Positions 3,170-23,050 of a DNA stretch of 64,000 nucleotides are shown piece after piece. Numbering within the stretch: position 1 is the stretch's first letter; the number at the start of each line of letters is the position of its first letter. The stretch is from Sinohyriopsis cumingii (Eukaryota > Mollusca > Bivalvia > Unionida > Unionidae), in assembly GCA_028554795.2 (NCBI GenBank), contig CM068830.1, positions 49,982,355-50,046,354 of the forward strand, given 5' to 3'. Under the pieces are notes generated by a model. That model was not told the origin of the DNA. It saw only the letters and a program-made list of their open reading frames with translations, and ran no database searches. Position numbers and translations under genes: made by a program.

Positions 3170-3533
3170 AGTAGTTAAGGGGGGTACTTTACGGACAATG
3201 GGAATTAGCATTACAGACCCCCCCTGGGTTAGATTACGGACAATGGAAATTTAACATGGCGAAAAATCGTGGGTCAGATTACGGACAAGGGGAATTAACA
3301 TGGCGATAAATTGTGGGTCACTCTACGGACAAGGGGAATTTAACATGGCGATAAATCGTGGGTCACTCTACGGACAAGGGGAATTTAACATGGGGAATAG
3401 TTTGGGCTTGTTTAGGGACAAGGGGAATGGAACATGGGATTTTTTTTAAAAAAAAAAATTTTAAAAAAGGGGTAGGCAATTCAAAGACTATCTCTTTTCG
3501 AGAAATATGGCTGGCCCTGAAAAGGGCCTTTGG
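3170..3533. repeat. Left terminal inverted repeat of Polinton (364 bp)
   Basis: The segment matches the reverse complement of 23007-23371. The only differences I see are one substitution (GATTACGGACA here, GATTATGGACA in the other copy) and an 11 versus 12 A-run. The outer part carries five to six ~45-bp tandem repeats (about 3186-3445), each with GGACAAGGGGAATTTAACATG-like cores. The inner end carries a histone-type stem-loop and its downstream element. Confidence 0.95.
3488..3533 (-). terminator. Histone-type 3' stem-loop and HDE of the left-most gene
   Basis: On the minus strand the order is CCCAAA, stem-loop GGCCCTTTTCAGGGCC (3513-3528), AGCCA, then a purine-rich CGAAAAGAGATAG (about 3488-3500). 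This matches the layout of replication-dependent histone mRNA ends: a 6-bp stem with a 4-nt TTTC loop, an ACCCA-like flank, and an HDE about 14 nt downstream that pairs with U7 snRNA. The stem-loop begins 17 nt after the stop of the 3545-3931 gene and lies inside the TIR. Confidence 0.75.
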
Positions 3534-3544
3534 GTTTTCTTCTT

Positions 3545-3931
3545 CTAATTTCTTCTTTTCCTCCACCAAGTTCTTATTTTATCTCCTACACTCTTCTTCT
3601 CTTTCTTTTTTTTCTTCTCCTCCTCTTCTTTCTTCTTCTCTTCCTCCTCTTCTTTCTTCCTCTTTTCATTTTCTTCTTCTTTTTCAATTTTTTCGTTCCA
3701 ATTGCGTATTCTTATTCTTTCCTCTTCATCCTCCTTCTCCTCCTTGATCTCTTTCATGACACCACTAATCTTGTCCTTTGCTTTCCTTAAGTTATTAATT
3801 TCCATCTTCACACGATGGGGACTATAGGAATAATGGTCTTCAACCAGTCTTAATAGCATCTGTTCCATTATTCCTAAGTTGTCTAAAACGTCTTGCAAGG
3901 TTTGTATTTTGTCGATTTGGTTTGACGCCAT
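3545..3931 (-). CDS. Coiled-coil protein with Glu/Lys-rich tail, Polinton left-arm gene A
   Basis: The gene encodes 128 residues from an ATG at 3929-3931. Residues 1-60 form a plausible amphipathic helical domain (IQTLQDVLDNL, then MEQMLLRLVEDH). Residues 61-115 are almost only E, K and R, predicted as a long charged helix, and the C-terminus is basic (WWRKRRN). No family is recognised. It is the outermost gene on the left and is transcribed toward the terminus. The TATA-like TATAAT (3981-3986) sits in a promoter module shared with the next two genes, and a histone-type stem-loop follows the stop by 17 nt. By layout it is related to genes B and C, although the protein sequences are barely alignable. 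Confidence 0.7.
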   Translation of the reverse strand: MASNQIDKIQTLQDVLDNLGIMEQMLLRLVEDHYSYSPHRVKMEINNLRKAKDKISGVMKEIKEEKEDEEERIRIRNWNEKIEKEEENEKRKKEEEEEKKKEEEEKKKKKEKKSVGDKIRTWWRKRRN

Positions 3932-3975
3932 CTTCTTTTTATTCTTTGCAGAATGGTTTGAACGACGAACACTGT

Positions 3976-4018
3976 GGGTTATTATAGTGAAAGCGCGGAC
4001 GTGATGGAAAACATCCCC
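3976..4018 (-). promoter_or_regulatory. Shared promoter module, gene A
   Basis: Minus-strand order is GGGGATGTTTTCC, ATCACGTCC, GCGCTTTCAC, TATAATAACC. Near-identical modules lie upstream of gene B (4781-4821) and gene C (5633-5676). A second copy of the distal part, without a TATA box, lies at 4066-4090. The TATA to ATG distance is about 50 nt, which fits a normal TATA promoter with a short leader. Confidence 0.65.
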
Positions 4019-4300
4019 CTAAAAAACATAAAATGGATCTTACCTAGATCATGACCCAACAACTCGCGAACGTGAAGGAAAACATCCCCACTTTTCTCAT
4101 TTCATATAATATAACCCTAACTATACTCTCCACATACGCTAAGAAACAATAAAGAAACCCATAATCTACTATTCACACAAACTTACTTTATTAGTTACTA
4201 ACACAAACACAAACACACAATCACATACACTTCCACTATTAATAAAGAGTTAGTGTTTATTTTCACACTACTCTACCTACACACATTGGCAAATCGATCG

Positions 4301-4346
4301 TTATTTCTTTTCTAGAGTATTGGGTAGCCCTGAAAAGGGCTGTTTT
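4301..4346 (-). terminator. Histone-type 3' stem-loop and HDE, gene B
   Basis: Minus strand: stem-loop AGCCCTTTTCAGGGCT (4326-4341), then ACCCA, then TACTCTAG, then AAAAGAAATAA. The flank is the canonical histone ACCCA and the HDE spacing is about 14 nt. The closing pair is A-T in place of G-C. A further-downstream AATAAA (in AAAATAAACAC, about 4250-4262) could act as a backup poly(A) signal, as seen in some invertebrate histone genes. Confidence 0.75.
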
Positions 4347-4370
4347 GTTTGGAACTTCATGGACACCTGG

Positions 4371-4730
4371 TTAATGGTGGCACCTTCCAGGCCTGGCGCC
4401 ACATACACATCTTATCCCCCAGTTACTTTTTACCTTTTGGGGGGAGAGAGCAGAGGCAGGATATGTCGCTTCAGAATCCCAATTTTCGCTCTCTGGGATT
4501 TTGAAATTTCTTCTCTCCTTTTCCTCCTCCTCTTCTTTGTTTCTTCTTTCCTCTTTATATCTTCTTTCTTCTTCTTTATATCTTCTCTCCTCCTCTTCTT
4601 TGTTTCTTCTTTCCTCCTCTCTTATCCTTCCCTCCTCGACAATGGCTTCCGCGGCCAGTTCATTTAATATGCGCCTGGCATATTCCAGATGCACATGAAG
4701 CTCCAACAGTTTCTCAAGTCTCGTGTTCAT
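4371..4730 (-). CDS. Coiled-coil protein with EERR repeats, Polinton left-arm gene B
   Basis: The gene encodes 119 residues from the ATG at 4728-4730; an in-frame TTG further upstream is not needed. Residues 1-35 are a leucine-rich amphipathic helix (LEKLLELHVHLEYARRIL), followed by about 45 residues of repeated EEERRYK/EERRNK units, then a less biased C-terminal part with CVCG. No known family. It sits between genes A and C with the same promoter module 50 nt upstream and a histone-type stem-loop 30 nt after the stop. The charged repeat suggests a long solvent-exposed helix. Function unknown. Confidence 0.65.
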   Translation of the reverse strand: MNTRLEKLLELHVHLEYARRILNELAAEAIVEEGRIREEERRNKEEEERRYKEEERRYKEERRNKEEEEEKERRNFKIPESENWDSEATYPASALSPQKVKSNWGIRCVCGARPGRCHH

Positions 4731-4780
4731 TTTTCGGTGTTGATCAATCAACAAGGGTAGCTGGACTGCCGAACGAGTTT

Positions 4781-4821
4781 CAATTTATACTGAAAGCGCG
4801 GACGTGAAGGAAAACATCCCC
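4781..4821 (-). promoter_or_regulatory. Shared promoter module, gene B
   Basis: Minus-strand GGGGATGTTTTCCTTCACG followed by TCCGCGCTTTCA and the TATA box GTATAAATTG. It is about 50 nt upstream of the gene B ATG and nearly identical to the modules of genes A and C. A degenerate second copy of the distal half is at about 4872-4900. Confidence 0.65.
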
Positions 4822-5156
4822 TAATAACATAAAATTCATCTTACCTAGATCATGGCCAAAAAAAAACAACAACGCGCGGACCTAAAAGAAACACTCACTC
4901 ACTTTTTATGCTACCCATCACTATTTTAAAATTTTTTTATAAATCACTTCAATAGACTATCCACATACTCAAAGCAATTCAATCTAACTCCAAATATGCA
5001 CCTCAAACACTAAGAAAAGATATCATTTTAATCTACTATCCACACCAACTTACTTTAGCACTTACAAACACACAAACACATACACTCTCACTATCAATAA
5101 AGAGTTAGTGTTTATTTTCACACTACTCTACCTACACACATTGGCAAATCGATCGT

Positions 5157-5201
5157 TATTTCTTTTCTAGAGTATTGGGTAGCCCTGAAAAGGGCTTTTT
5201 T
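5157..5201 (-). terminator. Histone-type 3' stem-loop and HDE, gene C
   Basis: Minus strand: stem-loop AGCCCTTTTCAGGGCT (5181-5196), ACCCA, short spacer, then AAAAGAAATAACG. About 100 bp around it (5095-5200) is nearly identical to 4240-4345 behind gene B, so the 3' module was copied with the cassette. It starts 27 nt after the gene C stop. Confidence 0.75.
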
Positions 5202-5222
5202 TGTTTGCTATGGCATTCTTTT

Positions 5223-5582
5223 TTAGTTTCTAAGAATGCGATGTCCTCTGAGGATAGACTTTCTGGCGATAGGTCTGCTTCTTCGGAAAGAGAAGAAGAA
5301 CTCTTTGGTGTCGATACGACAATCGACAAAGCCTCTGTCAGCTTCAGGTTGTTGCTGCTGTTGCTGTTGTTGCTGCTGTTGCTGCTGTCTCTGAAGTCTG
5401 TACTTCTCCGTCCATTCTTCTTTTTCCCTGTTCACTTCTTCTCTGAAGAGCTCTTCTATCAGGTCTTCAGTGATTTTTAACATTCTCACATTCTCTATTT
5501 CTTCTGGCTTCGGTGTCAGACTGTGTCTGACCCTATGCAAATTCACGTAGGCTTCGTTGAGCTTAGCTAGTTTGGAGCACAT
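5223..5582 (-). CDS. Helical protein with polyglutamine run, Polinton left-arm gene C
   Basis: The gene encodes 119 residues from the ATG at 5580-5582; the longer open frame to 5696 lacks an ATG and would overlap the promoter. The N-terminal 65 residues look helical (LAKLNEAYVNLHRVRHSL, then LKITEDLIEELFREEV). A run of about 13 glutamines follows, encoded by a mixed CAG/CAA repeat at about 5353-5393, then a basic tail rich in R and S. No family recognised. Promoter module and stem-loop match those of genes A and B, so the three form a tandem cassette array with diverged coding parts. Confidence 0.65.
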   Translation of the reverse strand: MCSKLAKLNEAYVNLHRVRHSLTPKPEEIENVRMLKITEDLIEELFREEVNREKEEWTEKYRLQRQQQQQQQQQQQQQPEADRGFVDCRIDTKEFFFSFRRSRPIARKSILRGHRILRN

Positions 5583-5632
5583 CTTCTTAGGAGGATGAGT
5601 CGACAATGGATGGCTAGACTGGAAACAACCCC

Positions 5633-5676
5633 GGTTATTATAGTGAAAGCGCGGACGTGAAGGAAAACATCCCCCA
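5633..5676 (-). promoter_or_regulatory. Shared promoter module, gene C
   Basis: Minus strand GGGGATGTTTTCCTTCACG, TCCGCGCTTTCACTATAATA, ACC. It is almost base-for-base the gene A module, and its TATA (CTATAATA) lies about 50 nt before the ATG. Confidence 0.65.
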
Positions 5677-5819
5677 CACGGTTTTTTGAGCCGCAACGTT
5701 CAATGAGTGTCATGAGAGGGATAGTAAGAAATGAAAGAGCATCAATTCAACATTCTATAAGAATTAACAAGCTATAAGCTAAACAAAAGACAAAAGCATT
5801 TTTTCAAAACACAACATTT

Positions 5820-5825
5820 TTTATT
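5820..5825 (-). terminator. Poly(A) signal AATAAA after the protease gene
   Basis: TTTATT on the plus strand, read as AATAAA on the minus strand, about 110 nt after the protease stop. No histone-type stem-loop is found between the protease stop and this site, unlike in the cassettes to its left. Confidence 0.55.
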
Positions 5826-5936
5826 CAAAAATCACTTAACACTAAACAACAACTCTAACATTTTTAACAATAATCCAACACTATAACATCAAACAATTTT
5901 TTTCAAATCACAAACATTTTTTTCTCAATTAACCAT

Positions 5937-6497
5937 CTACTTTAAACAGGGCTGACAACGTTGTGAATGAAATTGTGATTTCCACTGTTGGAAATCATTA
6001 GGCCATTGATGGACACTACGTTTCCTAGCTTGAGACAAAAGATAAGCATAATGGTCACAAAACCATCGATCTACTTTCACATCGTTTCTAGCAGAAGAAC
6101 GAGGATCAAAATGAGTCACTAAATGTTCTAAGGAATAGCCCAGGCTGCGATGATGCAGAAAATACACACAATATTGTCCGCACACCAAGGAATCTGTGCC
6201 TTGTAATTTCACATTATTGAATCGGGTGGTTTGAGCATTTCTTCTCATAAAGTCGATGATATCGTCTTCCAAAGGGGGCAATCCATACGAATCGAAATAT
6301 TCCACACATCCTTCTTGAGGAAAGTAGACGGCTACCCAGTGGGTTCCTGGGAGATGACTGTCGTCCGTGTTGATCACGTAAGCTTGATGGTCTTTAGGTT
6401 TGCGATGAGGGAGTTCATCTTTAGCACAGACGACGGGATTCCAAGAAGACGTATACGAACTGTGGTTCAAAAGGTAATAAAGTTCCCAGGTATCCAT
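5937..6497 (-). CDS. PRO: Adenain-like cysteine protease (PRO)
   Basis: A 186-aa Polinton maturation protease, close to the length of adenovirus adenain (about 200 aa). The catalytic set is visible in the family order: His53 in GTHWVAVYF, Asp69 in FDSYGL, Gln99 in LQGTDS and Cys106 in VCGQYC. In adenovirus and Polintons this Ulp1/C5-type enzyme is expected to cleave capsid and core precursors during virion maturation. It lies at the end of the capsid gene block, with the next gene ending 20 nt upstream of its ATG. The ATG at 6495-6497 gives the usual start (MDTWELYYLL) directly before the conserved LP-containing segment. The active-site residues look intact. Confidence 0.93.
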   Translation of the reverse strand: MDTWELYYLLNHSSYTSSWNPVVCAKDELPHRKPKDHQAYVINTDDSHLPGTHWVAVYFPQEGCVEYFDSYGLPPLEDDIIDFMRRNAQTTRFNNVKLQGTDSLVCGQYCVYFLHHRSLGYSLEHLVTHFDPRSSARNDVKVDRWFCDHYAYLLSQARKRSVHQWPNDFQQWKSQFHSQRCQPCLK

Positions 6498-6516
6498 TGT
6501 TTTGTGGTCTTCTTCT

Positions 6517-7002
6517 TCACAGGTAATAATACGTCGTCAATTCGATCCTGACTTTTTGCTTGAAAATGTCTGAGGAATAAACGGTTATTCGTTCTGTTTC
6601 CTCACTCTGATTCAGGAGAGCTTCGATACGATGGATCTCTTGAGTGGTTAATGGTGGACAAGAATGTTCACGCAAGTCTTTATACCACTGGTGCAACACG
6701 TCTTTGTTCGAGATGAGACTCCAAGCTTCGTCCAGATACTCGTCCAATTTTTCTTCTTGACTCAACATCAGGCATTTATCGTGTTGAATTTGACTGGGAT
6801 GATCGTTTTGACATCCATAACAATTTTTCTTGATCAATTCCGTCATTTTGTCGACCAAGTGTTTGGCAAAACAGGAGACTAAATGGGCTTCTTGTTCTGG
6901 CCATCTCGATTTCATCATGATCACTTCTTCTTTTTCTACGGTCTCCTTACATTCCATCTCCAAAGTTTCTCCACTAGGTAAAGAGAGATAACAGTTTTCC
7001 AT
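6517..7002 (-). CDS. Conserved small Polinton protein with putative zinc site
   Basis: A 161-aa protein from the ATG at 7000-7002. It contains a compact Cys/His cluster (C61, C64, H68, H74, C77; CYGCQNDHPSQ, then QHDKCL) that could bind one zinc ion. The flanking sequence is helical and acidic (LSQEEKLDEYLDEAW). Proteins with this CxxC-HPSQ-H-C arrangement recur next to capsid and protease genes of Polintons, as far as I recall, but have no assigned function. It lies between the major capsid protein and the protease in the same orientation with short gaps, suggesting a late or virion role (inference). Confidence 0.75.
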   Translation of the reverse strand: MENCYLSLPSGETLEMECKETVEKEEVIMMKSRWPEQEAHLVSCFAKHLVDKMTELIKKNCYGCQNDHPSQIQHDKCLMLSQEEKLDEYLDEAWSLISNKDVLHQWYKDLREHSCPPLTTQEIHRIEALLNQSEETERITVYSSDIFKQKVRIELTTYYYL

Positions 7003-7045
7003 GGTTTCTAGTAATCTAGGATGACTTCTCTCAAACTGTTGATTT

Positions 7046-8323
7046 CTATCGTATTATCAAATTTGCATATAGGATGACGTTCACTGTCGCTGGCAGAGGA
7101 TCTGCAAACTGAAGTTCCACACGAATCTGGCCAGATTTTATAGGGTGGAAATGTCCCTCGTCGCTGCCTTGGTCTGGAGTAAAATCGAAAGCCCACAAAG
7201 CATAACCTCCTGCGTAATCGTCGTACGTAATGCCGTGACTGGTGTTGGTTCCTAACTGTCCGGTGGCTTCGTACAGGGACAAGTACGATCTCAAGTAATT
7301 CTTCTTTGTGGGATCAAAGTCGGGTTCGAAAGGTCGGGTACACAAGGTCTTGCCATCGCGACTGACTTCGATTTTCTTCACGTCGAAGTGATGAAAGTTG
7401 AAAGGATTTTCAAGGAAGGCTCCGTTGAAGGCTGAATTCGAGACCATACCAAGGATTAAACGTTTGGGTAACTGTCCTTGGAACAGATGATCTTCGATCA
7501 TGGATCGCTGTCCAGTGGGAATGGTGAAGGTTTTCACTTCCACGCGTCGTATGGGATACTTGGCGGTCGTTCTGCTCAACGTCTGACTGATGTCGTTTCC
7601 CACTTTAGGTAACACTTCCACACGGCGTACGTAGAGTCTGGCTTCCTCGATTTTGCTTTTAGGATTGCCAGTCTTAGTAGCATCAGCATCAGCCAACAAA
7701 TGGAAAGCGGCACTGCTGCGATTCAGTCTCAAGCGGATATTGACCCCGTTCAGCAAATATTTCTCTTGCAACCACATGTCCAAATGCAAACGATCCATCA
7801 GTTCTAAACTCTTTCCACCTAGGATTTTCTTTTGTCTTTCCTCAAAGCCGTCATTGTCTTTTTTTAATGTGTTAAACTCATTTGCGTCGTCAGGTTCCCA
7901 CAGCACACAGGCATTGAGATGAGTATCCTTGGCATCTATTCCGTACGTCAAGAGATTTTCCAGGTAGGCACGGTAAGGGTAAGTATCCATGCTGCTGCTA
8001 ACCAGTTTGTTGTTCAAGTACAAGTCCACTGAGCTGAACAAGGAATGCATGAAATTGTTGACGGGAGCTATATTCTCAGTGTCTTCTACTGCACCATTAT
8101 CCTTATCTAGAACTTTGACTTTCAGGTACAAGTAACTGCTATTCAGATCGATGTAATCTTCGGGTTGTCCTTTGATTTCAAACTCGATGGGAGCGGAATC
8201 GGTCAGTGAGGAGACGGGATGAAATTCCACCCATTGGGATTCTTGCATCGTCATCATGGTGGGGGGCATGGCAAACAGATCCAGTTCCGTCTTGGAACAA
8301 GCGCAAGACTCTCGGTGCATCAT
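7046..8323 (-). CDS. MCP: Major capsid protein, double jelly-roll (MCP)
   Basis: A 425-aa protein of the group often annotated as F54H12.2-like, identified in published work as the Polinton double-jelly-roll major capsid protein. Recognisable blocks: the N-terminal DSAPIEFEIKG and YIDLNSSYLYLKVKV strands, the conserved NNFMHSLFSSVDLYLNNKLV and TYPYRAYLENLLTYG around residues 90-130, and C-terminal strands ending in VNVILYANLIIR. Adjacent ATG codons at 8321-8323 and 8318-8320 both fit. Trimers would form the capsomers of an icosahedral shell. It lies 13 nt after the small basic protein gene. The frame is intact with no internal stops. Confidence 0.93.
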   Translation of the reverse strand: MMHRESCACSKTELDLFAMPPTMMTMQESQWVEFHPVSSLTDSAPIEFEIKGQPEDYIDLNSSYLYLKVKVLDKDNGAVEDTENIAPVNNFMHSLFSSVDLYLNNKLVSSSMDTYPYRAYLENLLTYGIDAKDTHLNACVLWEPDDANEFNTLKKDNDGFEERQKKILGGKSLELMDRLHLDMWLQEKYLLNGVNIRLRLNRSSAAFHLLADADATKTGNPKSKIEEARLYVRRVEVLPKVGNDISQTLSRTTAKYPIRRVEVKTFTIPTGQRSMIEDHLFQGQLPKRLILGMVSNSAFNGAFLENPFNFHHFDVKKIEVSRDGKTLCTRPFEPDFDPTKKNYLRSYLSLYEATGQLGTNTSHGITYDDYAGGYALWAFDFTPDQGSDEGHFHPIKSGQIRVELQFADPLPATVNVILYANLIIR

Positions 8324-8336
8324 TTTTTTCTGTGTT

Positions 8337-8756
8337 TCAATAATCGAAAACGTCTAAGTCTCGAACGGTTCTTCTTTTCTTGGCCTTTCTCGCTTGAAGT
8401 CTGGTGAAAGGGTGTTTTCTTCTTCGTCGTCTCTTTCTGCCTTGTCCTTGCTGAATGCTTGACTCGGTAGCGTGCAGGGCATTTATAGGTGTGTCTCGTC
8501 GGCCCAAAATGTCTTTACCCGTTTGCAGCAAGACATTTTTGCCAGCCCTCATGAAGGCTTCTTTAGGGTTTTGTTTGTCGATGATGACATTTTGGAGAAA
8601 TTCTTTGCCTTGCGTCAGTGCCGCATCTTTCAAGGCGTGCAATCCGCGTGTCACCATCGGTTTCAACACAGGAGCCACCGAGCGAAAGGCTGATTTTAAC
8701 ATATCTCCTAAACCGTGTCCTCGCTGTCGTGCAACCCCTTGGTACACTGGATACAT
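8337..8756 (-). CDS. Small basic virion-like protein between MCP and penton
   Basis: A 139-aa protein. Residues 13-60 hold a Gly-rich amphipathic segment (GHGLGDMLKSAFRSVAPVL) and helices. The C-terminal third is strongly basic (KRRRRRKHPF and KAKKRRTVRD). Proteins of this size and layout regularly sit between the penton and major capsid genes of Polintons and have been compared with adenovirus core or membrane-lytic minor proteins (pVI/pX type). That comparison is by layout only here. The ATG (8754-8756) follows the penton stop by 3 nt and I see no separate TATA box, so it may be expressed from the same transcript. Confidence 0.7.
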   Translation of the reverse strand: MYPVYQGVARQRGHGLGDMLKSAFRSVAPVLKPMVTRGLHALKDAALTQGKEFLQNVIIDKQNPKEAFMRAGKNVLLQTGKDILGRRDTPINALHATESSIQQGQGRKRRRRRKHPFTRLQARKAKKRRTVRDLDVFDY

Positions 8757-8759
8757 GAC

Positions 8760-9701
8760 TTACGAATCGTGAGAGAACCGTTTTCGAAAATGGAGTTTCA
8801 CCGTGACTTTTCCTTTGGTGAATGGAATATTTTGTCCCAAATCTCCTTTTATTGTAATGTTGACCGTGTCCAAATACGACTTGCTGACCGGCAAATAGTG
8901 AGGATGAACAAATTCGCGGTGGACGTGATAAGTGTTTCCACCTTCCTCGTCAGCGGTCGTGGCAGAATCCACTTTGAAAGGAATGACACGCAGTAACGGC
9001 ACGGAGGTGTGTCCCACCACGTTGTATTCCACCACATCGGAATACACAAAGATCAAATTCAGTCCTTGGTTCAGTTCTACCGGGAAACGAAAATACTTGG
9101 CAAAAGAGTCGTTGTCATGAATGACTGATAATTCGGGACTTTTTTTTTGTTCTCCTATCTTCCTCATCTCCGTGTCACCGCCCAATATGTCAAACAATTC
9201 AAGACAAAATAAGAAAGACATGAATTTTTTGGACCCCTCAGAAAATTTCATCAGAAAGCGACGAGCTATTTTGTGGTATTCCAGGGTGACACTTTTTTGG
9301 ACATTCCCCAAAGCTTTATGGAACACGCCATTAAACCTGGAGGCTATGGCGCTGACCAAATGATGACCACTGAAATAATAGCCTGGGAGAATGAACAAGT
9401 TGTAGGTGGTTGTTTTAGTTCTGTCATCAGAGGTTTTATTGGTATATGTGCCAATCTTATCCAACTCATCTTGCAATTGTTTGTCATGAACTTCCACCTT
9501 AAACCAATTTTGCTGGGCAGTGATATTGAGGACTTGGGTTGGGTGAATCATTTCCACTAAAGCCACTTCCCAATGGGCTTCGTGATCTAAGGGGATGGCT
9601 TGAGGTAATTTGGCCGTGTAACAGCACAACGTGTTGTTGGGAAACACCTCCATGGAACTGTCACTGGGTAAGGTTAAGTAAAATTGGTTTTGGTGACTCA
9701 T
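8760..9701 (-). CDS. mCP: Minor capsid protein / penton (single jelly-roll)
   Basis: A 313-aa protein with the conserved N-terminus of Polinton pentons: FYLTLPSDSSMEVFPNNTL, then TAKLPQAIPL and EAHWEVALVEMIHP, where a strand pair leads into the jelly-roll. The length fits the family. Pentons are expected to form pentamers at the capsid vertices together with the major capsid protein. The ATG (9699-9701) overlaps the TGA of the upstream membrane-protein gene in an ATGA arrangement, so the two genes overlap by 4 nt. The frame is intact. Confidence 0.9.
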   Translation of the reverse strand: MSHQNQFYLTLPSDSSMEVFPNNTLCCYTAKLPQAIPLDHEAHWEVALVEMIHPTQVLNITAQQNWFKVEVHDKQLQDELDKIGTYTNKTSDDRTKTTTYNLFILPGYYFSGHHLVSAIASRFNGVFHKALGNVQKSVTLEYHKIARRFLMKFSEGSKKFMSFLFCLELFDILGGDTEMRKIGEQKKSPELSVIHDNDSFAKYFRFPVELNQGLNLIFVYSDVVEYNVVGHTSVPLLRVIPFKVDSATTADEEGGNTYHVHREFVHPHYLPVSKSYLDTVNITIKGDLGQNIPFTKGKVTVKLHFRKRFSHDS

Positions 9702-10108: not shown

Positions 10109-10113
10109 GATGG

Positions 10114-11223: not shown

Positions 11224-11244
11224 TTTTTATTTTGTGTTGGTGTG

Positions 11245-14458: not shown

Positions 14459-14503
14459 GGTGTGAGAAATGTCACTTGTGACACGAAAACGAACAAGACA
14501 AGA

Positions 14504-14513: not shown

Positions 14514-14527
14514 TTTTTCAGAACACG

Positions 14528-15058: not shown

Positions 15059-15273
15059 GGAGGTGGTAAGTACTGATCGTAAAGAGTCCACAAAGAATCG
15101 GCTGGTAAACGAAATCCCAAAAAACAAGTCACTAAGACACACACCACTTGTCGTCCCAAATTGAATGGATACAGTTCTTGTAATAATCGATGGTAATGAT
15201 CCACGGTTTGAATATGGTCATTGAGTTCCTTCCACGGAATCTGTTGGATGACATGTGACATAAGTCGTGGCAT
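15049..15273 (-). CDS. Unassigned 74-aa protein overlapping its neighbours
   Basis: An ATG at 15271-15273 opens a 74-aa frame (IPWKELNDHIQTVDHYHRLL) with a hydrophobic stretch around residues 40-55 (QVVCVLVTCFLGF). It overlaps the tail of the upstream F-box-like gene by 56 nt and the start of the next gene by 10 nt. A TATA box (15283-15290) is unusually close to the ATG; the ATG at codon 5 may be used. It could be the N-terminal part of the next gene displaced by a frameshift. No family recognised. Confidence 0.45.
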   Translation of the reverse strand: MPRLMSHVIQQIPWKELNDHIQTVDHYHRLLQELYPFNLGRQVVCVLVTCFLGFRLPADSLWTLYDQYLPPPWP

Positions 15274-15736: not shown

Positions 15737-15748
15737 GAATAGGTCATA

Positions 15749-16204: not shown

Positions 16205-16235
16205 GAACAGATTATTATTATGGTAAGAAGTTACT

Positions 16236-16973
16236 TCAATGTCTCGGTCCCACTAAGGGTAAGTAATGACAATTCGGTGACCATCGAGCATGTTCTACGT
16301 AGGCCGAATCTTGCGGTTCCCAGTGGTGAAGTGTCACATCGCAACTGAAGCACCTGACTTTATCTCCTTCGCCCAAGTAGAAAAATCCGGCTCTGGCTAA
16401 TTCTTCGGGGGTCGGTCCTCCCAGATACTTTGGCCATTTTCCTTTGAACGATTGAAGACGATTTTCAAAGTCGCAGTATTCCGACAAACGCACAGGAAAC
16501 GAATATTCGTTTTTCACAGGTTCGTTTCGATGAGGGTTGAGTGACATGGGTAGGAGTTTGCTCAAGGCTGGATGACATCCGTAGGGGGGTAGACGTGAAG
16601 GTGAACATTCCCCTTTAAACCCGGTAAAATGTCTAAGAGGACGAGCGGCATCACTTTCGCATCCCTCAGGTTTGACACGCACAGCATCACTTTCCATGAC
16701 AGGGGCAGTGAGAACAAAGTTCCCATGATGCTTTACGGCATCGCTCAGGTCACAACGTACAGCATCGTATCCATCGCAAGGCTCACAATCGCACTCGTCT
16801 GCAAACTCCGTTACGCAATTACAATGGTAACCACATGGACAATCGCAGTTTCCTTCTGGACATTTTCCGTCGCAATGCCTGGGTCTTATCCATCCAGTAT
16901 TAGTCACACTAGAGGAAGATACAACTTTTTTACAATCCCCAAACTGGAACGATGTCTCTTTCAAAGTATTCAT
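16236..16973 (-). CDS. BIR-domain protein (IAP-like) with Cys-rich N-terminus
   Basis: A 245-aa protein from the ATG at 16971-16973. Residues about 168-237 form one BIR domain: RLQSFKGKWP, then ELARAGFFYLGEGDKVRCFSC, with zinc ligands C208, C211, H228 and C235 in the exact CX2CX16HX6C spacing, and a conserved HARW-P-C end. No RING or CARD follows. Residues 34-66 are very rich in Cys (C-x3-C-x4-C-x-C-x-C patterns) and may be a separate metal-binding region. BIR proteins of insect DNA viruses and cells block caspases or regulate ubiquitin; here a role against host cell death is inferred. A strong TATA box lies within the end of the polymerase gene. Confidence 0.85.
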   Translation of the reverse strand: MNTLKETSFQFGDCKKVVSSSSVTNTGWIRPRHCDGKCPEGNCDCPCGYHCNCVTEFADECDCEPCDGYDAVRCDLSDAVKHHGNFVLTAPVMESDAVRVKPEGCESDAARPLRHFTGFKGECSPSRLPPYGCHPALSKLLPMSLNPHRNEPVKNEYSFPVRLSEYCDFENRLQSFKGKWPKYLGGPTPEELARAGFFYLGEGDKVRCFSCDVTLHHWEPQDSAYVEHARWSPNCHYLPLVGPRH

Positions 16974-17005
16974 CTTGTTCGCTCGGTCTTGGTAGTCCCA
17001 ATGAA

Positions 17006-20000
17006 CTATCGATCTTGCCTAGGGTTCCTTTTTATATACAGACCAATACTGACGTGACCGTACGGTAAGGTGAAATGATTGGGAAGTCGCACTCGCTTCT
17101 GGTACACGATTTGATAAACTTTTTCCAAAGGTCGACTGACGATGTGGTGAGTGGGTAAACGTACAATCTTGTTCGGTTGGTAAGTGGTCACTTTAAAGTT
17201 TCCATCCTCTTCCGATTGCAAGGCTTCTTTCAATACCCCAAAGTTGACCACTCGACTGGTACGATGATTCAGAGTCAGTCCTTTCACTTTGCACGTCGTG
17301 TGCACTTCTCCTTGTTTGTCACGGTATTCGTAGCCGTAATTTTTGGGACCGCCACTGACGAAACTTAGAATCTTGTCGTCGGGATGCTCGTCTGTCCAGG
17401 CTCCTAAACGGTCTCCTTCGATGTCAGGGTGATGTTGAATCGGGTGATGGATGTAAATGCAACTGTCCGTGTCAAAGTACAGGACGCGTTCTTCTAACAG
17501 TTCTAAAGCTTCGTACAATTTTAAGCGAGCATGGGCTGTCACGTAATCCGCAATGATGACATTTCCAAAGGGGTCGTCTTGTACAAAGTCCAGATCTTCT
17601 TCGTAATTGACTAAGATCAAATCCTCGCGAACGACGTCCACGTGTTTCATGAATTTGGTCTTGTCGTGAATCATCTGAAAGTAGCGGGAAGGTTCTGTCA
17701 AATATTCCGTCTTGGATAAACACGGGCGTTGTGCCATTTTACCCCACAAGCAATTTAACATCACTTTGGCAAACGATCGCCTGCCTTCGTTTTTCTCGAT
17801 GTGGTCTAAAGTGATGCCTTCTTGTTCGTAATATTTCTCTTTGAATTGTATTTGGTCTTCGGGAGTGTGACACCAGGAAGGATAGCCGCTGGCTTCTTGC
17901 TTCAGTTTCAAAAAGGCATCCACGTAGTCGGCGAAAATGCCTTTCTGAGTAGGGTCACCCTTGTGGTAATGTTGTGTCTTGGGAAAGTGGCAAATTTCGT
18001 ATACTTCTAACAGTTGGTATCCCATGTCCAGAGCTTTGAACAATTCTACGCTGACCCAGGTTCCCGTCAAGGCCCGTTCTTCCTGGCTGTGCTGACAAGG
18101 TTGGTCTTGGTTGCACGTTTCGGCACAAGTACGGCACAAGGGAAACATCAGTTTGCCTTGACAATGGTGAGGTAAGACGGGATGGTATAGGTTCGTGGGA
18201 GGCAAAACTTTGCACTTGATCAAGCCTTCGTATTGTCGAATGTTTTTCAGGTCGATGTGTTCCGTCAGCAATTGCGGGTGCCCTACAGGAAAGCGACAAT
18301 ATTTGCACACGTAGGGATACAGCGAACACACGTCCAAGTATTTGATTTCTTCTCCTTTCTCTTCGTCGGCTTGGTACAGCAAACAGGTGGCATTGGTCCT
18401 TCCTCCGTACAAACTATCCCTCGGGTTCAGCGGGTCCATGAACTGGTAACTTTCCACGAGGCGTTTAAACTCGGGATCGGTTTTCAAACGGTGATCGTAT
18501 TCGTGTTCCCACATTTCCACCACTTGGTATCCTTGCTGTTCTAACTTTAGGCGCCGCTGACAAGTGTCCTGGTACAAGTCTTCCATGGTTCGTTGCAAAA
18601 ACTGATTTTTAGTGCCACGGTCAGGGTAACAGACGGGACATCCGTGAAATAAGCAACCGTTAAACTCGTACACGATCTTGGGGTTTTCTAAGTCCCAGCC
18701 ATCGACCGAATACGTTCCGATGGTCTTTTCGCCCCCTCCGTTGCGAGCATGCTGAATCCACTTGTCTTCCTTGTCACACAAGTAATGTAACCAGCGTAAG
18801 GCTTTGACCGAGTATTGACGTTTGACAAAGTGGGTCGTTTGAGGGCTGATGACAGCCACGGTGTTTTCAGGCATGAATCGTTGGCGGTACACTAAGGAAC
18901 ACGCTTTGGCAATGGTGCAAGCTTCTTTCAAAGGATCGACCCCTCCGTGTTCCATGAACAGTTCTCGAAATTTTCCACAGCAACGCCGTAAAATGTCCAC
19001 GTCGGAACGACAATACTTTAACATTTCTTCCTGAAAGTCGAAAGGGTCCGAGGCGTGAGCCTGGTACCAAGCGTAGAAAGCTTCTCGTTGTTCGGTACGC
19101 ATGTTGTCGGGGTCGTAATAGTGAGCCTCAGGTAAATGGGGTAGAACGGCGTGTTGATTGGCTTCCGTATTGAAAAAGTGTGGAAAGTACCCTTTAGCCA
19201 TTTCTGTCATTCCAAACGTTTTAGGCATTCGACTCAAAGGCATGGCCAAGTAACTCATCGAATCTTTAAACTGTACTTGTCCCACTTGCATGAAAATGAT
19301 TTTGGCTCCGTTCAAAGTCACTTTAGGACGCTCGGTGCCTTGTTCCGTATAGTACCTCAAAAGAAACTGTCCATCGTATCCGGAGAAATTGTGAGCCATC
19401 ACCGTGGCATGACGATGACAATCTCCGTAACGTTCGATATCCTCTTGGCTCCACGTCTTGTCGACGGGGTCTAAGACCCATTGGGCAAAATCGGCTAACG
19501 TGTTTGGCCCCCGAAAGATTTTTTCACGTCCTCCGGGAATCTTGCTGCAGTGAGGGCAATGACTGAAGATAGGTTCTTGAATGCACTTCTCGCACGCTCG
19601 ATGAGCCACGCAGAAATTAGGAATGTGAATGCCGGTCTCTTGCATGCATTCGAAATCGAAAAAGATGAAATTGCCTTTCTTCTTGTGACCGTCCTCTTTC
19701 TCTGGTGGGGGTTGGTATTTTTGCACGTAACATTGGTGTTCCAAGTCCACGATGTGGTGACAAATGTGACATTTTTTCTTTCCTGAACATACGTGTGCCT
19801 TGGTATTATTGGTACGTATGCCTTGTCCACACGTAGGGCACAATCTCAGCAGTTGACAAGCGCATTTCTTCTGTGAACCTTGCGTCTTCAAATGTTGTTG
19901 GTAACAGGTAGGGCTGACAAACGTGCGCAGACAAGTTGAACAAGGCACTGGTTCTTCGCTCAGACAGGGTGGAGAGGCCAAACATCCTGTGCATTTCAAT

Positions 20001-21073
20001 CCGCAATGCTTGTGTTGCTCTCGATTGTTATAACCATGGTCACATTTCTCACAGTAATAACTGTATCCCAGGAATCCAGTGATAGTGGTAATCGTATCGA
20101 AATGGTCATCGTGATAATAGACATGAATGTATTTTCCGTCCTTAAAGTCTTGCCCTCGAAACAACAGAGGTCCACGCACTTCTTGAGGGTGCACTTTCAA
20201 GGTGTATCGTGGAGCTAGGACATCTTGCAATTTTTGCATCTCAGGAATGCCGCAGGGTGTGTCTTTGAGCAGTCCGGCTTGTTGTAACAGGAGTTCTGCT
20301 TCATTTCGTTGTTTGGCTCGGTCGGAACGTTGAATAGTGTCCCAGGTTCTTTTCCATTCTACCGTGTCGTTCTTGTTGGCATAGGTTCGTCCCACCACGA
20401 TGGCACGGGCTAAGCACATCTGGTCATGAGGGTTGTCAATTCGGACGAGACTTGTTTTGGTGTTGCGAAGGTCGTCCACCAATAACATCTTTTTGTGTCC
20501 TGTCCCTTGAGGAGGAGAGACGTGGGTCATGTCCAGTGTGGCTTTACCATCGGTGATGTCAAACTGATCATTAGATTGTTGCACGTGTTGAATCTTGTCC
20601 ATGACTTTGGAAGCGGTCAATTCTGCAGGGGTGCTAAACTCGATCCAAACAGGGGATTTCAAACCGTCGTGTTGTATGGAAAGTCTCAAGCGATCGTCTT
20701 CTTTGGGTTGACATTGTCGCTTAAGTGCAGTGAGCAGAGAATCCCACACTCCGGTGATGAACCCTTCTGCTTTCTCTAACGGCACTTCGGACTTGAAATC
20801 TTTAAACTCCACCGTGTATTTGTAAGCCGTGGTTCTAAATTTTCTAGAGGAGCGCTTTTCCGTCTCTCGAATGGAATAGTATTTTTCAGGATTAACTAAG
20901 GGTGGTGAACTTGGTTTAGAGGTTTCAAATTCTGGTTCACTCATGTCCTCTTCAAAATCACTGGCATGAATTTGTGCCAAGATTTCAGCCCTGGTACGAG
21001 GCGATAGATCACGTTTCTGCCTCTTACTTCTTTCTTCTTCTTCTTTCTTCTCGAATGAATGGGATCGTTTCAT
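17006..21073 (-). CDS. POLB: Protein-primed family B DNA polymerase (pPolB)
   Basis: A 1355-aa replicative polymerase. The proofreading exonuclease shows Exo I FFDFEC (D473, E475), Exo II HNFSGYDGQF (561-570) and Exo III YCRSDVD (687-693). The polymerase motifs are A, DVCSLYP (914-920); B, KVMLNCLWGK (1103-1112); and C, FDTDS (1200-1204). The long insert between A and B fits the TPR regions of protein-primed enzymes. Residues 340-450 hold a dense Cys/His cluster (several CxxC pairs), likely zinc-binding. Residues 200-325 (DQMCLARAIV, then a late YYHDDH) form a conserved Polinton N-terminal domain, possibly of papain or OTU fold (uncertain). The frame is fully open. It is divergent from the zinc-knuckle gene, 134 nt apart. 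Confidence 0.97.
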   Translation of the reverse strand: MKRSHSFEKKEEEERSKRQKRDLSPRTRAEILAQIHASDFEEDMSEPEFETSKPSSPPLVNPEKYYSIRETEKRSSRKFRTTAYKYTVEFKDFKSEVPLEKAEGFITGVWDSLLTALKRQCQPKEDDRLRLSIQHDGLKSPVWIEFSTPAELTASKVMDKIQHVQQSNDQFDITDGKATLDMTHVSPPQGTGHKKMLLVDDLRNTKTSLVRIDNPHDQMCLARAIVVGRTYANKNDTVEWKRTWDTIQRSDRAKQRNEAELLLQQAGLLKDTPCGIPEMQKLQDVLAPRYTLKVHPQEVRGPLLFRGQDFKDGKYIHVYYHDDHFDTITTITGFLGYSYYCEKCDHGYNNREQHKHCGLKCTGCLASPPCLSEEPVPCSTCLRTFVSPTCYQQHLKTQGSQKKCACQLLRLCPTCGQGIRTNNTKAHVCSGKKKCHICHHIVDLEHQCYVQKYQPPPEKEDGHKKKGNFIFFDFECMQETGIHIPNFCVAHRACEKCIQEPIFSHCPHCSKIPGGREKIFRGPNTLADFAQWVLDPVDKTWSQEDIERYGDCHRHATVMAHNFSGYDGQFLLRYYTEQGTERPKVTLNGAKIIFMQVGQVQFKDSMSYLAMPLSRMPKTFGMTEMAKGYFPHFFNTEANQHAVLPHLPEAHYYDPDNMRTEQREAFYAWYQAHASDPFDFQEEMLKYCRSDVDILRRCCGKFRELFMEHGGVDPLKEACTIAKACSLVYRQRFMPENTVAVISPQTTHFVKRQYSVKALRWLHYLCDKEDKWIQHARNGGGEKTIGTYSVDGWDLENPKIVYEFNGCLFHGCPVCYPDRGTKNQFLQRTMEDLYQDTCQRRLKLEQQGYQVVEMWEHEYDHRLKTDPEFKRLVESYQFMDPLNPRDSLYGGRTNATCLLYQADEEKGEEIKYLDVCSLYPYVCKYCRFPVGHPQLLTEHIDLKNIRQYEGLIKCKVLPPTNLYHPVLPHHCQGKLMFPLCRTCAETCNQDQPCQHSQEERALTGTWVSVELFKALDMGYQLLEVYEICHFPKTQHYHKGDPTQKGIFADYVDAFLKLKQEASGYPSWCHTPEDQIQFKEKYYEQEGITLDHIEKNEGRRSFAKVMLNCLWGKMAQRPCLSKTEYLTEPSRYFQMIHDKTKFMKHVDVVREDLILVNYEEDLDFVQDDPFGNVIIADYVTAHARLKLYEALELLEERVLYFDTDSCIYIHHPIQHHPDIEGDRLGAWTDEHPDDKILSFVSGGPKNYGYEYRDKQGEVHTTCKVKGLTLNHRTSRVVNFGVLKEALQSEEDGNFKVTTYQPNKIVRLPTHHIVSRPLEKVYQIVYQKRVRLPNHFTLPYGHVSIGLYIKRNPRQDR
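17029..17038 (-). promoter_or_regulatory. TATA box inside the polymerase 3' coding end
   Basis: TATATAAAAA on the minus strand overlaps polymerase codons for Y-I-K, about 55 nt before the BIR gene ATG. Confidence 0.65.
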
Positions 21074-21120
21074 CTTGAAAGCAAAAAGTCAAATGACTCA
21101 AGTTCAAACACCATAAGCTA

Positions 21121-21153
21121 CTTTATAGTCATAGCAGACCAGCGTATATAAAA
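21121..21153. promoter_or_regulatory. Bidirectional promoter: polymerase (-) and zinc-knuckle gene (+)
   Basis: A minus-strand TATAAAG (21121-21127) lies 48 nt before the polymerase ATG. A plus-strand TATATAAAAG (21145-21154) lies about 55 nt before the ATG at 21208. The two start sites are only 134 nt apart, so the genes are probably co-regulated. Confidence 0.65.
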
Positions 21154-21207
21154 GGGTGTGTGTCTTGTCCTTTCACTATTCATTTCACTCTCAAGCCGAG
21201 CACAACG

Positions 21208-21678
21208 ATGGAAGAGACTAACCAGATGGAACGTTTCGTCAGAGCTTTGCGAGGGGTCATTAGAAAATTCTCTTCAGACCAGCCTACGGACTACTCTCCT
21301 TCCTTTAGAGATAAAAGTCAAGATACTTGCTATATCTGTCAGAAGAAAGGGCATTGGTCTTCAGAGTGTCCAGACCGTGAAAAAAGAACAAAAACAGGGA
21401 CTAAAAAAGACAAAAGTCAAGATACCTGTTATTATTGTAAAGAAAAAGGACATTGGTCTCCAGATTGCCCAAAAAAGAAACAAGAGGAGTCAGAAGAAAA
21501 GAAGGATTCTTCAGAAGAAGAGAGGAATTCTTCAGAGGAAGAGAGGGATTCTTCTGAGGAAGAAAGAAGACAGGTGAAGAAAAAGAAACAGGAGAAAAAA
21601 AGAAGAAGGGAAGAAAGCGAGGAGGAAGAAGAGGAAAAGAGTGTGACGGTGAAGAAATTCAAAAAACAGAGAGACTAA
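21208..21678 (+). CDS. Zinc-knuckle (CCHC) protein with acidic Ser/Glu tail
   Basis: A 156-aa protein from the ATG at 21208-21210; the upstream open frame starts at a GTG. Two retroviral nucleocapsid-type knuckles are visible, C41-C44-H49-C54 (CYICQKKGHWSSEC) and C74-C77-H82-C87 (CYYCKEKGHWSPDC), both CX2CX4HX4C. They are preceded by a short helix and by repeated DKSQDT. The tail alternates SSEEER repeats, good casein kinase 2 targets, with KKRRR basic blocks that could act as nuclear localisation signals. It likely binds single-stranded nucleic acid; a role in replication or regulation is inferred from the shared promoter with the polymerase. AATAAA lies 87 nt after the stop. Confidence 0.8.
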   Translation: MEETNQMERFVRALRGVIRKFSSDQPTDYSPSFRDKSQDTCYICQKKGHWSSECPDREKRTKTGTKKDKSQDTCYYCKEKGHWSPDCPKKKQEESEEKKDSSEEERNSSEEERDSSEEERRQVKKKKQEKKRRREESEEEEEEKSVTVKKFKKQRD

Positions 21679-21764
21679 ACAAGGAGAAAAGAAGAAATCA
21701 ATGAACTTTTTATTAAAGTGTTGTGTTGTGAATTGTGAATTGGATTGTAAAAAATGGAGAAAAG

Positions 21765-21770
21765 AATAAA
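21765..21770 (+). terminator. Poly(A) signal AATAAA of the zinc-knuckle gene
   Basis: AATAAA on the plus strand 87 nt after the stop; no histone-type stem-loop lies between them. Confidence 0.55.
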
Positions 21771-21905
21771 TGAATGATATAAGGTAAGAGTCTTTGAGTT
21801 TTGATTTTAAAATAAGAAGCTACACTCACGCACTCATACATAGACACGTACTATAAGGGTAAAATGGGTGGGGTTTATTTCTGAGTTATTGGCAAATTGA
21901 AATTG

Positions 21906-21950
21906 TATTTCTTTTCGAGAAATGTGGGTGGCCCTGAAAAGGGCCTTTTT
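21906..21950 (-). terminator. Histone-type 3' stem-loop and HDE, gene D
   Basis: Minus strand: AAAAAA, stem-loop GGCCCTTTTCAGGGCC (21930-21945), ACCCA, CATTTCTCG, then AAAAGAAAT. This is the best match of the five to the histone layout, with perfect 6-bp stem, TTTC loop, exact ACCCA and HDE about 14 nt downstream. The stem-loop starts 28 nt after the stop of the 21973-22539 gene. Confidence 0.8.
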
Positions 21951-21972
21951 TCTTTATGGTGCAGGGGTGAGT

Positions 21973-22539
21973 TTAAGCAATCAATTTTAACTGCCTTAAG
22001 CCTTTGCCACGGCCAAGGCCTACTTCTGGACTGCGTAATGATGATAATGATTGGGTTGAAATCACTAAGGGTGGTACGGTAGGCTTAGTCACAGGGTTGA
22101 CGTGTTTAGCTCGGGAAGGTCGTATTCTCTTCGGTCGTGATAAAGAAGTCTGATACATTTGTTTCAGACTTCTTAACTCCGCTAAAATGTCCAACAGTAC
22201 CGTGACCGTTTGATTTTCACCCTCTTGTTTCTTTGCTGCTACTTCTTCTTGCTGTTGTTTTTTTCTTACCTCTTCTTCTTGTTGCTGTTGCTGTAAGAGA
22301 AAAGCCTGTTCCGCTTCCTTTTGTCGTTGCATAAATTTCTCCAATTCTTCTTTCTGTCTCTGTCTAAAATTCTCCACTTGCGGTAATGAAGAAGGTAACG
22401 AAGGTTCCGGAACAAATTCTTGCGAGGAGAGAAAATCGACAAAATCCCAATTCACCTCTTCTGAAAGTAAGTCCGGGTTCCCTTGGGCGGTCTCCCCTGC
22501 TGGTGCACCCCATTGGATCGTTTTCTGAGTTTCCGTCAT
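21973..22539 (-). CDS. Gln/Glu-rich coiled-coil protein, Polinton right-arm gene D
   Basis: A 188-aa protein from the ATG at 22537-22539. Residues 60-115 are a long coiled coil (RQRQKEELEKFMQRQKEAEQ) running into a QQQQQEEE stretch. A second helix (VLLDILAELRSLKQMY) follows, then a basic, Ser/Pro-rich tail ending GLGRGKGLRQLKLIA. No family recognised; the helix plus low-complexity layout recalls left-arm genes A to C. A TATATA box (22588-22596) and a CRE palindrome TGACGTCA (22601-22608) lie upstream, and a histone-type stem-loop lies downstream. It is divergent from gene E with 219 bp between the start codons. Confidence 0.7.
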   Translation of the reverse strand: MTETQKTIQWGAPAGETAQGNPDLLSEEVNWDFVDFLSSQEFVPEPSLPSSLPQVENFRQRQKEELEKFMQRQKEAEQAFLLQQQQQEEEVRKKQQQEEVAAKKQEGENQTVTVLLDILAELRSLKQMYQTSLSRPKRIRPSRAKHVNPVTKPTVPPLVISTQSLSSLRSPEVGLGRGKGLRQLKLIA

Positions 22540-22587
22540 GTTGAATCACTGTCGCATAGATTGACTGCACACAAGCGCTAGCGAATC

Positions 22588-22716
22588 TATATAGACTACG
22601 TGACGTCACAGACTGCTCTCTTCGGATTGGATGCGAGCTGACTGAATTTTGTAACGCGTGTTCGGATTGGTGAATGAACTCAATCCGTTTCAATCCTTTC
22701 TGTCCCTATAAATAAG
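22588..22716. promoter_or_regulatory. Bidirectional promoter of genes D and E with CRE and CCAAT boxes
   Basis: For gene D (minus): CTATATAG (22588-22595) and a perfect CRE/ATF palindrome TGACGTCA (22601-22608). For gene E (plus): TATAAATAAG (22706-22715). Between them two copies of TTCGGATTGG (near 22619 and 22659) contain ATTGG, the reverse of CCAAT. A CCAAT plus TATA divergent arrangement is typical of metazoan core-histone gene pairs, which fits the histone-type 3' ends of both genes. Confidence 0.55.
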
Positions 22717-22758
22717 CGCAGTTCACTGCATTGATTCACCTATTGTAGGAGCCTCAAC

Positions 22759-22989
22759 ATGTGGACCGACGTTGAATCTTCAACCCTTGTGTCAACAATG
22801 ATGTTCAGGACGGACATGCTCATGTATGTCCGATCCAAGTGGACCGTTGTCCACAGGACCAGCAGCAGCCTGTGGATAAGAAGAGTCTATATAGAGAGAC
22901 AAGGTTGCCTCAAGAGGACTCTGATGTACGGCCCTGCTGTAAGACGAAGTTTGAGGACAAGAAGATGTCGCAAATGCCCTTTATGTTAA
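22759..22989 (+). CDS. Short basic protein, Polinton right-arm gene E
   Basis: A 76-aa frame from the ATG at 22759-22761, 44 nt after a TATAAATAAG box. It is rich in Arg, Met and Thr (TMMFRTDMLMYVRSKW) and ends in RTRRCRKCPLC, a possible half metal site. No family recognised. Support for expression is contextual: own TATA box, and a histone-type stem-loop on the same strand 22 nt after the stop (23012-23027). It is the outermost gene on the right and is transcribed toward the terminus, mirroring gene A on the left. A chance frame cannot be excluded. Confidence 0.55.
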   Translation: MWTDVESSTLVSTMMFRTDMLMYVRSKWTVVHRTSSSLWIRRVYIERQGCLKRTLMYGPAVRRSLRTRRCRKCPLC

Positions 22990-23004
22990 GGGCATATTAA
23001 CATA

Positions 23005-23050
23005 AACCAAAGGCCCTTTTCAGGGCCAGCCATATTTCTCGAAAAGAGAT
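23005..23050 (+). terminator. Histone-type 3' stem-loop and HDE, gene E
   Basis: Plus strand: AACCAAA (the canonical histone 5' flank), stem-loop GGCCCTTTTCAGGGCC (23012-23027), AGCCA, ATATTTCTC, then GAAAAGAGA (23041-23049). It lies within the right TIR and is the mirror copy of the one behind gene A. Confidence 0.78.

Follow-up and report, generated by a model that had tools for sequence, protein, structure and literature searches.

The closest described system is the 3' end of replication-dependent histone mRNAs (Rfam family RF00032), which involves SLBP, the U7 snRNP and CPSF73 and is specified by a stem-loop, a tail and a purine-rich element (HDE) at a set spacing. Histone mRNAs are described as the sole animal protein-coding mRNAs with a stem-loop end in place of poly(A) (PMC6303110), and the human H2A gene H2AC18 is described (PMC9756948) as carrying a stem-loop and HDE together with a poly(A) signal and giving both mRNA forms. 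The window, the whole stretch of 64,000 nucleotides from Sinohyriopsis cumingii analysed here, contains an element that resembles the Polinton/Maverick (adintovirus-like) elements in its family-B polymerase, rve integrase, ATPase, protease-like and capsid-like genes, terminal inverted repeats (TIRs), 6-bp target site duplication (TSD) and 20-kb size, and differs from them in having histone-type gene ends. The signal at these ends agrees with that of five host histone types in stem-loop, tail, HDE and spacing, the difference being that it follows Polinton genes and not histone-coding genes. No report of histone-type gene ends in Polintons turned up when open-access papers were searched in full text.

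The element, delimited by its inverted repeats, ends and gene content, spans 3170..23371 (20,202 bp) and is flanked by the 6-bp TSD AACGGC. The left (3170..3541) and right (22999..23371) TIRs, defined by the inverted-repeat arms, are each about 372 bp long. The core genes lie on the minus strand and include polB (17006..21073, 1355 amino acids, PF03175 with E 1.2e-41), an integrase with rve and chromo domains (10114..11223, PF00665 and PF00385) and a packaging-type ATPase (13805..14554, Pox_A32), all with profile matches over the cut-off. A probable adenovirus-type protease (5937..6497) has a PF00770 match under the cut-off (16.3 bits, E 0.0084) and is the last core gene, with an AATAAA (5820..5825, minus strand) 112 nt past its end. 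The product of 7046..8323 (minus strand), probably the major capsid protein, is 32% identical to a protein of a divergent Polinton, locus L017, and has no sequence match in Pfam, NCBIfam or the PDB. Structure models of this protein (mean pLDDT 44.5, of too low quality to assess a double-jelly-roll fold) and of the terminal gene E product (mean pLDDT 51.0) are poor and were not used. A tblastn search of phage records with the window polB gave five weak matches.

Five accessory genes, A to E, occupy the ends of the element, and each is followed by a histone-type stem-loop in sense orientation. Gene A (3545..3931, minus strand) encodes a charged, coiled-coil-like protein of 128 amino acids with a pN/pS of 0.285 over 7 ORFs; its stem-loop (3513..3528, minus strand, 35.6 bits with RF00032) has the tail AGCCA (3508-3512) and the HDE AAAAGAGAT (3490-3498). 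Genes B (4371..4730) and C (5223..5582), both on the minus strand, each encode 119 amino acids counted from the first ATG and are followed on the same strand by stem-loops at 4326..4341 (31.0 bits, E 2e-5) and 5181..5196 (31.4 bits, E 1.4e-5), with the tail ACCCA and the HDE AAAAGAAAT at 4303-4311 and 5158-5166, respectively. Gene D (21973..22539, minus strand, 188 amino acids) has 20 relatives in the protein database and a pN/pS of 0.60 (21 ORFs, including frame-shifted ones), and ends in the highest-scoring stem-loop (21930..21945, minus strand, 41.2 bits, E 9.6e-9), with ACCCA and AAAAGAAAT (21907-21915). Gene E (22759..22989, plus strand) encodes 76 amino acids with a basic C terminus, and its stem-loop (23012..23027, plus strand, 35.6 bits) is followed by AGCCA (23028-23032) and AAAAGAGAT (23042-23050). 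A spurious ORF was considered for gene E and rejected on its pN/pS of 0.197 over 22 ORFs and its relative P0141; by these sequence measures it behaves as a real gene.

The stem-loops start 17, 30, 27, 28 and 23 nt past the stops of A, B, C, D and E, and AAAAG starts 14 nt past each of the five stems. All five stem-loops lie where the earlier note had placed them; of its two tail variants, ACCCA belongs to B, C and D and AGCCA to the two TIR copies. Genes A, D and E reach the RF00032 gathering score of 34, and B and C fall just short; beyond these five, the element has no further Rfam match of any kind at E<=1. The 6-bp stem, the 4-nt pyrimidine-rich loop and the A-rich 5' flank of the family are all present, and in the B and C stems an A-U outer pair replaces G-C with pairing preserved. 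Within 250 nt of the 19 other listed ORFs of the element no stem-loop was found, and the core genes lack one. The 16-mer with up to three mismatches occurs five times in the window against 0.19 expected, a number reached in none of 100 shuffles. The five occurrences share a cassette of about 54 nt (70-87% identity); those of A and E sit in inverted-repeat arms (3440-3541 and 22999-23100), and B and C carry theirs within a 138-nt duplication with 96% identity. With A and E in the two TIRs and B and C as duplicates there are therefore about three independent placements and not five, and the earlier count of five genes with the signal stands as a count of stem-loops and not of independent events. 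For three independent placements the chance probability of sense orientation 17-30 nt past a stop is about 5.5e-6, and together with the excess over expectation and the RF00032 matches this rejects a chance origin.

The host H1, H2A, H2B, H3 and H4 genes bear the same 3' signal with AAAAG at 14-15 nt, and the HDE-like segments of the element agree with the HDEs of these five gene types in the core GAAAAG and its spacing. The takeover of the histone 3'-end signal proposed in the earlier note is well supported by the RF00032 matches and by this shared core and spacing; its further points, pairing with the host U7 and coupling to S phase, are putative. A profile search for the host U7 RNA (RF00066) gave one sub-threshold match (29.3 bits, E 0.27), at locus L024, which is without CTCTTT and unconvincing as the host U7. 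The predicted fold places part of the HDE in a second small hairpin in the window D and TIR cassettes, which could hinder U7. The AGCCA of the window TIR cassettes, departing from ACCCA, and the sub-threshold RF00032 scores of B and C likewise weigh against such processing.

The D and E stem-loops are perfect in 34/34 Polinton copies chosen by their polB, although these copies are nearly identical and their conservation alone shows little. A more diverse sample came from RF00032 itself, with at least 75 matches in the genome, from 75 scored among 589,472 candidates; the window stem-loops and the histone units are absent from these. Forty of the at least 75 loci were fetched and all 40 match the element, so host histone genes or pseudogenes are rejected as their source for the fetched loci. 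The genes upstream at these loci are A-, D- and E-like and others. Across the 67 cassettes of the 40 loci the share of minor letters is low in the stem-loop (1.4% on the E side, 0.8% on the D side, 4.3% in others), the tail (4.3, 2.7 and 2.8%) and the HDE (4.3, 4.4 and 5.7%), and much higher in the spacer (15, 15 and 25%) and the flanks (14-30%). AAAAGAG or AAAAGAA lies at +14 in 62 of the 67, the tail is ACCCA in 56, and the outer pair is kept as A-U in eight. One locus (L105) has no stem-loop at the place expected for that of C.

The signal recurs in the divergent Polinton L017, which gives no blastn match to the window element. Here a C2H2 gene, different from genes A to E, ends in an RF00032 match of 35.8 bits with an ACCCC tail and AAAAGAG at +14. 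L017 is the one contig with a match among 11 polB contigs from prokaryotic assemblies; the other ten, many being fragments, have none. In IMG/VR a polB profile search gave one distant locus without an RF00032 match, and polB alone confirmed no relatives among 12 stretches. A strict stem-loop pattern gave no stretches in this collection, a looser version found 11, none reaching RF00032, and a third gave one in a context that is phage-like by eye; the collection says little about animal Polintons. Upstream of the genes, CCAAT and CRE-like sites occur 5' of the L017 gene and in the divergent D/E promoter region (22540..22758), which as motif matches holds two CCAAT boxes, a CRE-like site and TATA boxes. 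Neither site was found 5' of A, B or C, and CCAAT is upstream of H3 alone among the five host histone genes, leaving no case for a shared histone promoter.

Judged from the DNA, in which the signal is present, lies past genes, is conserved, matches host histone genes and recurs in a divergent Polinton, host SLBP/U7 processing has very probably been taken over for genes A to E, with mRNAs that would lack poly(A) and core genes that would be polyadenylated in the ordinary way. Each terminal gene carries the full metazoan signal of 6-bp stem, 4-nt loop, ACCCA-type tail and purine HDE 14 nt on. Host SLBP would bind the stem-loop, the U7 snRNP would pair with the HDE, and cleavage would fall after the tail, giving transcripts that end like host histone mRNAs. 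Ordinary polyadenylation would be left to the core replication and capsid genes. Expression of A to E would then track S phase, when replication of the element itself would profit, and the TIR cassette may act as a ready-made gene end for any adjoining gene.

A less probable reading, which we regard as a serious possibility, is that SLBP binds the stem-loop and many A-E mRNAs are nevertheless polyadenylated at a nearby AATAAA, the histone-type end being one of two forms and S-phase coupling partial. Genes B, C and D each have an AATAAA (at 4256-4261, 5111-5116 and 21874-21879) 50-64 nt beyond the stem, or 94-110 nt beyond the stop, so that polyadenylated forms are possible, and another lies 70 nt past the L017 stem. 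The two forms made by H2AC18 (PMC9756948) offer a precedent with a histone-type signal close to a poly(A) signal; that gene, however, encodes a histone of the cell itself, and its poly(A) signal and HDE overlap. Against dual ends, A and E have no AATAAA or ATTAAA within 250 nt of the stop, and the HDE is more conserved than spacer and flanks, from which U7-dependent cutting seems to have been kept.

That the cassette is a functionless relic of a captured host histone 3' UTR, spread by duplication inside the element, is very unlikely. All window cassettes are homologous and 12 nt (CTCTAGAAAAGA) are common to the B/C cassette and the host H2B HDE region, as such a relic would have it, yet the contrast between columns that stay fixed and columns that drift, the outer pair kept in A-U form and the recurrence in L017 speak against passive descent, and blastn of three host histone units detected no DNA shared with the element. 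Hairpins are also found at giant-virus gene ends, and those that follow genes of this virus-like DNA element might be supposed to be a different viral transcription or polyadenylation signal that looks like the histone one; this is more doubtful still, as it explains neither the loop typical of histone mRNAs nor the ACCCA tail, nor an HDE at 14 nt that matches host histone HDEs, and does not fit a hairpin restricted to terminal genes. Least credible is a DNA element of the TIRs serving replication, packaging or integration and lying past genes by accident, which suits the A and E copies inside the TIRs but not the internal B, C and D copies, each in sense past a gene, nor the conserved downstream HDE.

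Histone-type processing of the terminal genes may extend beyond this element. We consider it rather likely that histone-type 3' ends on terminal, probably early, genes are an old and selected trait of animal Polintons, and that the mRNAs of these genes would form a non-histone class made by SLBP and U7, free of poly(A) and following S phase, with the TIR cassette a portable end taken up by changing accessory genes. If so, poly(A)-selected RNA-seq would miss part of Polinton activity, and a selfish DNA element would break the histone-only rule for stem-loop mRNA ends in animals (PMC6303110). A virus-like element would also gain a direct way of coupling the expression of its genes to DNA replication in the host.

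The Polinton spans window positions 3170-23371 (20,202 bp) with the flanking repeat AACGGC and terminal inverted repeats (TIRs) of ~372 bp that are 96-99% complementary. Among its genes are polB (PF03175), whose nearest named relatives are oyster proteins, and an integrase that combines an rve and a chromo domain. Others encode a Pox_A32-type ATPase, a BIR protein, a zinc-knuckle protein and probable capsid proteins, and there is a sub-threshold adenovirus-protease match. The BIR (inhibitor of apoptosis) domain gene lies at 16236-16973 (E 1.9e-23), and the adjacent ORFs 15218-15736 and 15749-16204 are paralogues (210-nt direct repeat, 85%) that have no informative Pfam match. Two small basic proteins (11998-12408 and 12469-12657) have a RGGILPLL- or RGGFLG-like stretch that may resemble the adenovirus core protein pX. 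Degenerate tandem repeats of ~50 bp are placed immediately outside the element (24659-25524). The terminal genes are A (3545-3931), B (4371-4730), C (5223-5582) and D (21973-22539) on the minus strand and E (22759-22989) on the plus strand. A 43-bp repeat situated 5' of A, B and C (3977-4019, 4780-4822 and 5633-5675; identity 81-98%) is likely a promoter element common to these three genes.

A stem-loop begins 17-30 nt past the stop codon of each terminal gene (A 3513-3528, B 4326-4341, C 5181-5196, D 21930-21945, all minus strand; E 23012-23027, plus strand), and all five positions claimed in the earlier note are borne out in the window sequence. The tail is ACCCA, or AGCCA in the TIR copies, and the purine HDE proposed at about 14 nt is present, with AAAAG beginning 14 nt after every stem-loop. 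In the proposed scan with RF00032, the Rfam histone 3' stem-loop model, D, A and E score above the gathering score of 34 and B and C reach only 31 bits (E ~1e-5); no other Rfam family matches the Polinton at E<=1. The claim of five genes holds for the presence of the signal at each but not for independence, as the stem-loops of A and E sit in the paired TIRs, which carry one sequence twice, and those of B and C in a duplication, leaving ~3 placements. With ~1.76% of strand positions falling 10-40 nt past a stop (23 ORFs used), the chance of three such placements is ~5.5e-6. No such stem-loop lies within 250 nt of the remaining 19 of the 24 listed ORFs; AATAAA is found 112 nt after the protease gene, the last core gene, and ATTAAA 34 nt and AATAAA 87 nt after the zinc-knuckle gene. 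AATAAA also occurs 50-64 nt beyond the stems of B, C and D, and none is present within 250 nt of the stop of A or E. The stems are predicted to fold as expected, and in the D and TIR cassettes a second small predicted hairpin takes in part of the HDE, which would speak against ready U7 access.

The host histone genes are arranged in tandem units of ~8.3 kb, and all 16 RF00032 matches in three units (L066-L068) score 35.0-39.4 bits and lie behind H3, H4, H2B, H2A and H1. The respective HDEs are CTAGAAAAGAGCT (H3), CTAGAAAAGATAA (H4), CTAGAAAAGATGT (H2B), CCCGAAAAGGAAT (H2A) and CTAGAAAAGATTA (H1), and AAAAG sits at a spacing of 14 or 15 nt in these genes. The host H2B HDE and the Polinton B/C cassette have CTCTAGAAAAGA in common, and GAAAAG is common to every window cassette and all five host histone HDEs. 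In mammals the HDE core AAAGAG pairs with CUCUUU of U7 (excerpt of PMC7026596); the host U7 was not found, a search with the Rfam U7 family RF00066 giving one match at 29.3 bits (E 0.27) without CTCTTT. The Polinton has no blastn match (E 1e-10) to the histone units, so the signal was not newly copied from a histone gene.

The genome (2.9 Gb, 1138 contigs) contains at least 34 polB copies that are 98-100% identical at the amino-acid level, and 31 of these 34 are free of internal stops, which makes this, judged by sequence, a young Polinton family. Right ends were compared in 33 further copies, picked by polB to avoid stem-loop selection, and the window. All 34 have a perfect stem-loop on the E side, starting 23 nt past the E frame, and all 34 a perfect one on the D side. 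The D frame stops 23-30 nt ahead of the stem-loop in 31/34 and is truncated in three (L075, L084 and L096); in L086 and L087 the normal D end is reached only by a 61-aa frame, and E of L096 has 63 aa. None of 76 columns varies among the E cassettes, and the likeness of these copies means that conservation there says little about selection. In a sample of five left ends the stem-loop starts 19-37 nt past the gene for A (4/5, the end of A in L103 lying beyond the fetched stretch), B (5/5) and C (4/5, with no stem-loop at the expected site in L105).

A genome-wide RF00032 search gives at least 75 matches, and all 40 of the 75 that were fetched match the window Polinton (blastn, >500 nt). The upstream frames, assigned by eye, are 15 E-like, 7 D-like, 7 A-like, 9 other left-end genes (including that of L050, whose start resembles the protease gene) and 2 without assignment; one signal therefore lies behind different genes. 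At eight left ends (L028, L039, L041, L043, L049, L054, L058 and L060) of related copies, non-A genes precede the same TIR stem-loop, which points to accessory-gene turnover.

These 40 loci supply 67 cassettes (23 E-side, 15 D-side and 29 other), for which the percentage of minor-letter cells is given in that order. The values are 15/15/25% for the 9-nt spacer and 4.3/4.4/5.7% for the HDE, a contrast less biased than the stem-loop figure of 1.4/0.8/4.3%, the loci having been picked by RF00032 and the cassettes by stem-loop pattern. The tail gives 4.3/2.7/2.8%, the 5' flank 21/30/29% and the 3' flank 22/14/21%. The stems are GG..CC in 48 cassettes and AG..CT in 8, the outer pair being retained via a change on each of the two sides; four keep pairing as G-U (three GGCT, one with a GCT end) and seven have one broken pair. 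AAAAGAG or AAAAGAA occupies the +14 position in 62/67. The pN/pS values are 0.197 for E (22 ORFs), 0.285 for A (7 ORFs) and 0.60 for D (21 ORFs), the last pushed up by frame-shifted members.

A polB profile finds 11 polB-bearing contigs in prokaryotic assemblies (L013-L023), for example five in a Limnohabitans MAG, which are apparently eukaryotic carry-over. L017, an 8.9-kb contig catalogued as part of a Bacteroidia MAG, is the sole one with an RF00032 match (35.8 bits); neither the other ten nor the one IMG/VR locus has a match that reaches the gathering score, and searching seven of these loci at E<=0.05 adds none. L017 encodes polB frames, an integrase and a capsid-like protein that is 32% identical to the probable major capsid protein of the window Polinton. 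Its C2H2 zinc-finger gene (8042-8311) is followed, 29 nt past the stop, by GGCCCTTATCAGGGCC, then ACCCC, with AAAAGAG at +14; AATAAA lies 70 nt beyond the stem, then repeats of CCCATTGTCC close to the contig end. By blastn, nothing in L017 matches the window Polinton, and L017 therefore represents the same gene end on a different terminal gene of a divergent Polinton. Database proteins related to D number 20, and E has one relative (P0141); P0141 and the D relative P0008 each come from a 1455-nt contig with identical sources, which suggests a D/E pair on one contig.

A genuine, selected histone-type 3'-end signal at A-E is strongly supported. Full-text searches of open-access papers turned up no title or opening of an abstract that describes a histone-type 3' end for a Polinton gene or any other viral gene, and none of the papers searched pairs 'Polinton' with 'histone stem-loop'. 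The AATAAA motifs may provide a back-up poly(A) site for B, C and D, comparable to a human H2A gene that yields both mRNA forms (excerpt of PMC9756948). Because the signal matches that of the host histone genes, SLBP and U7 would be expected to act on the Polinton cassettes, and the mRNAs of A-E would be without poly(A) and track S phase.
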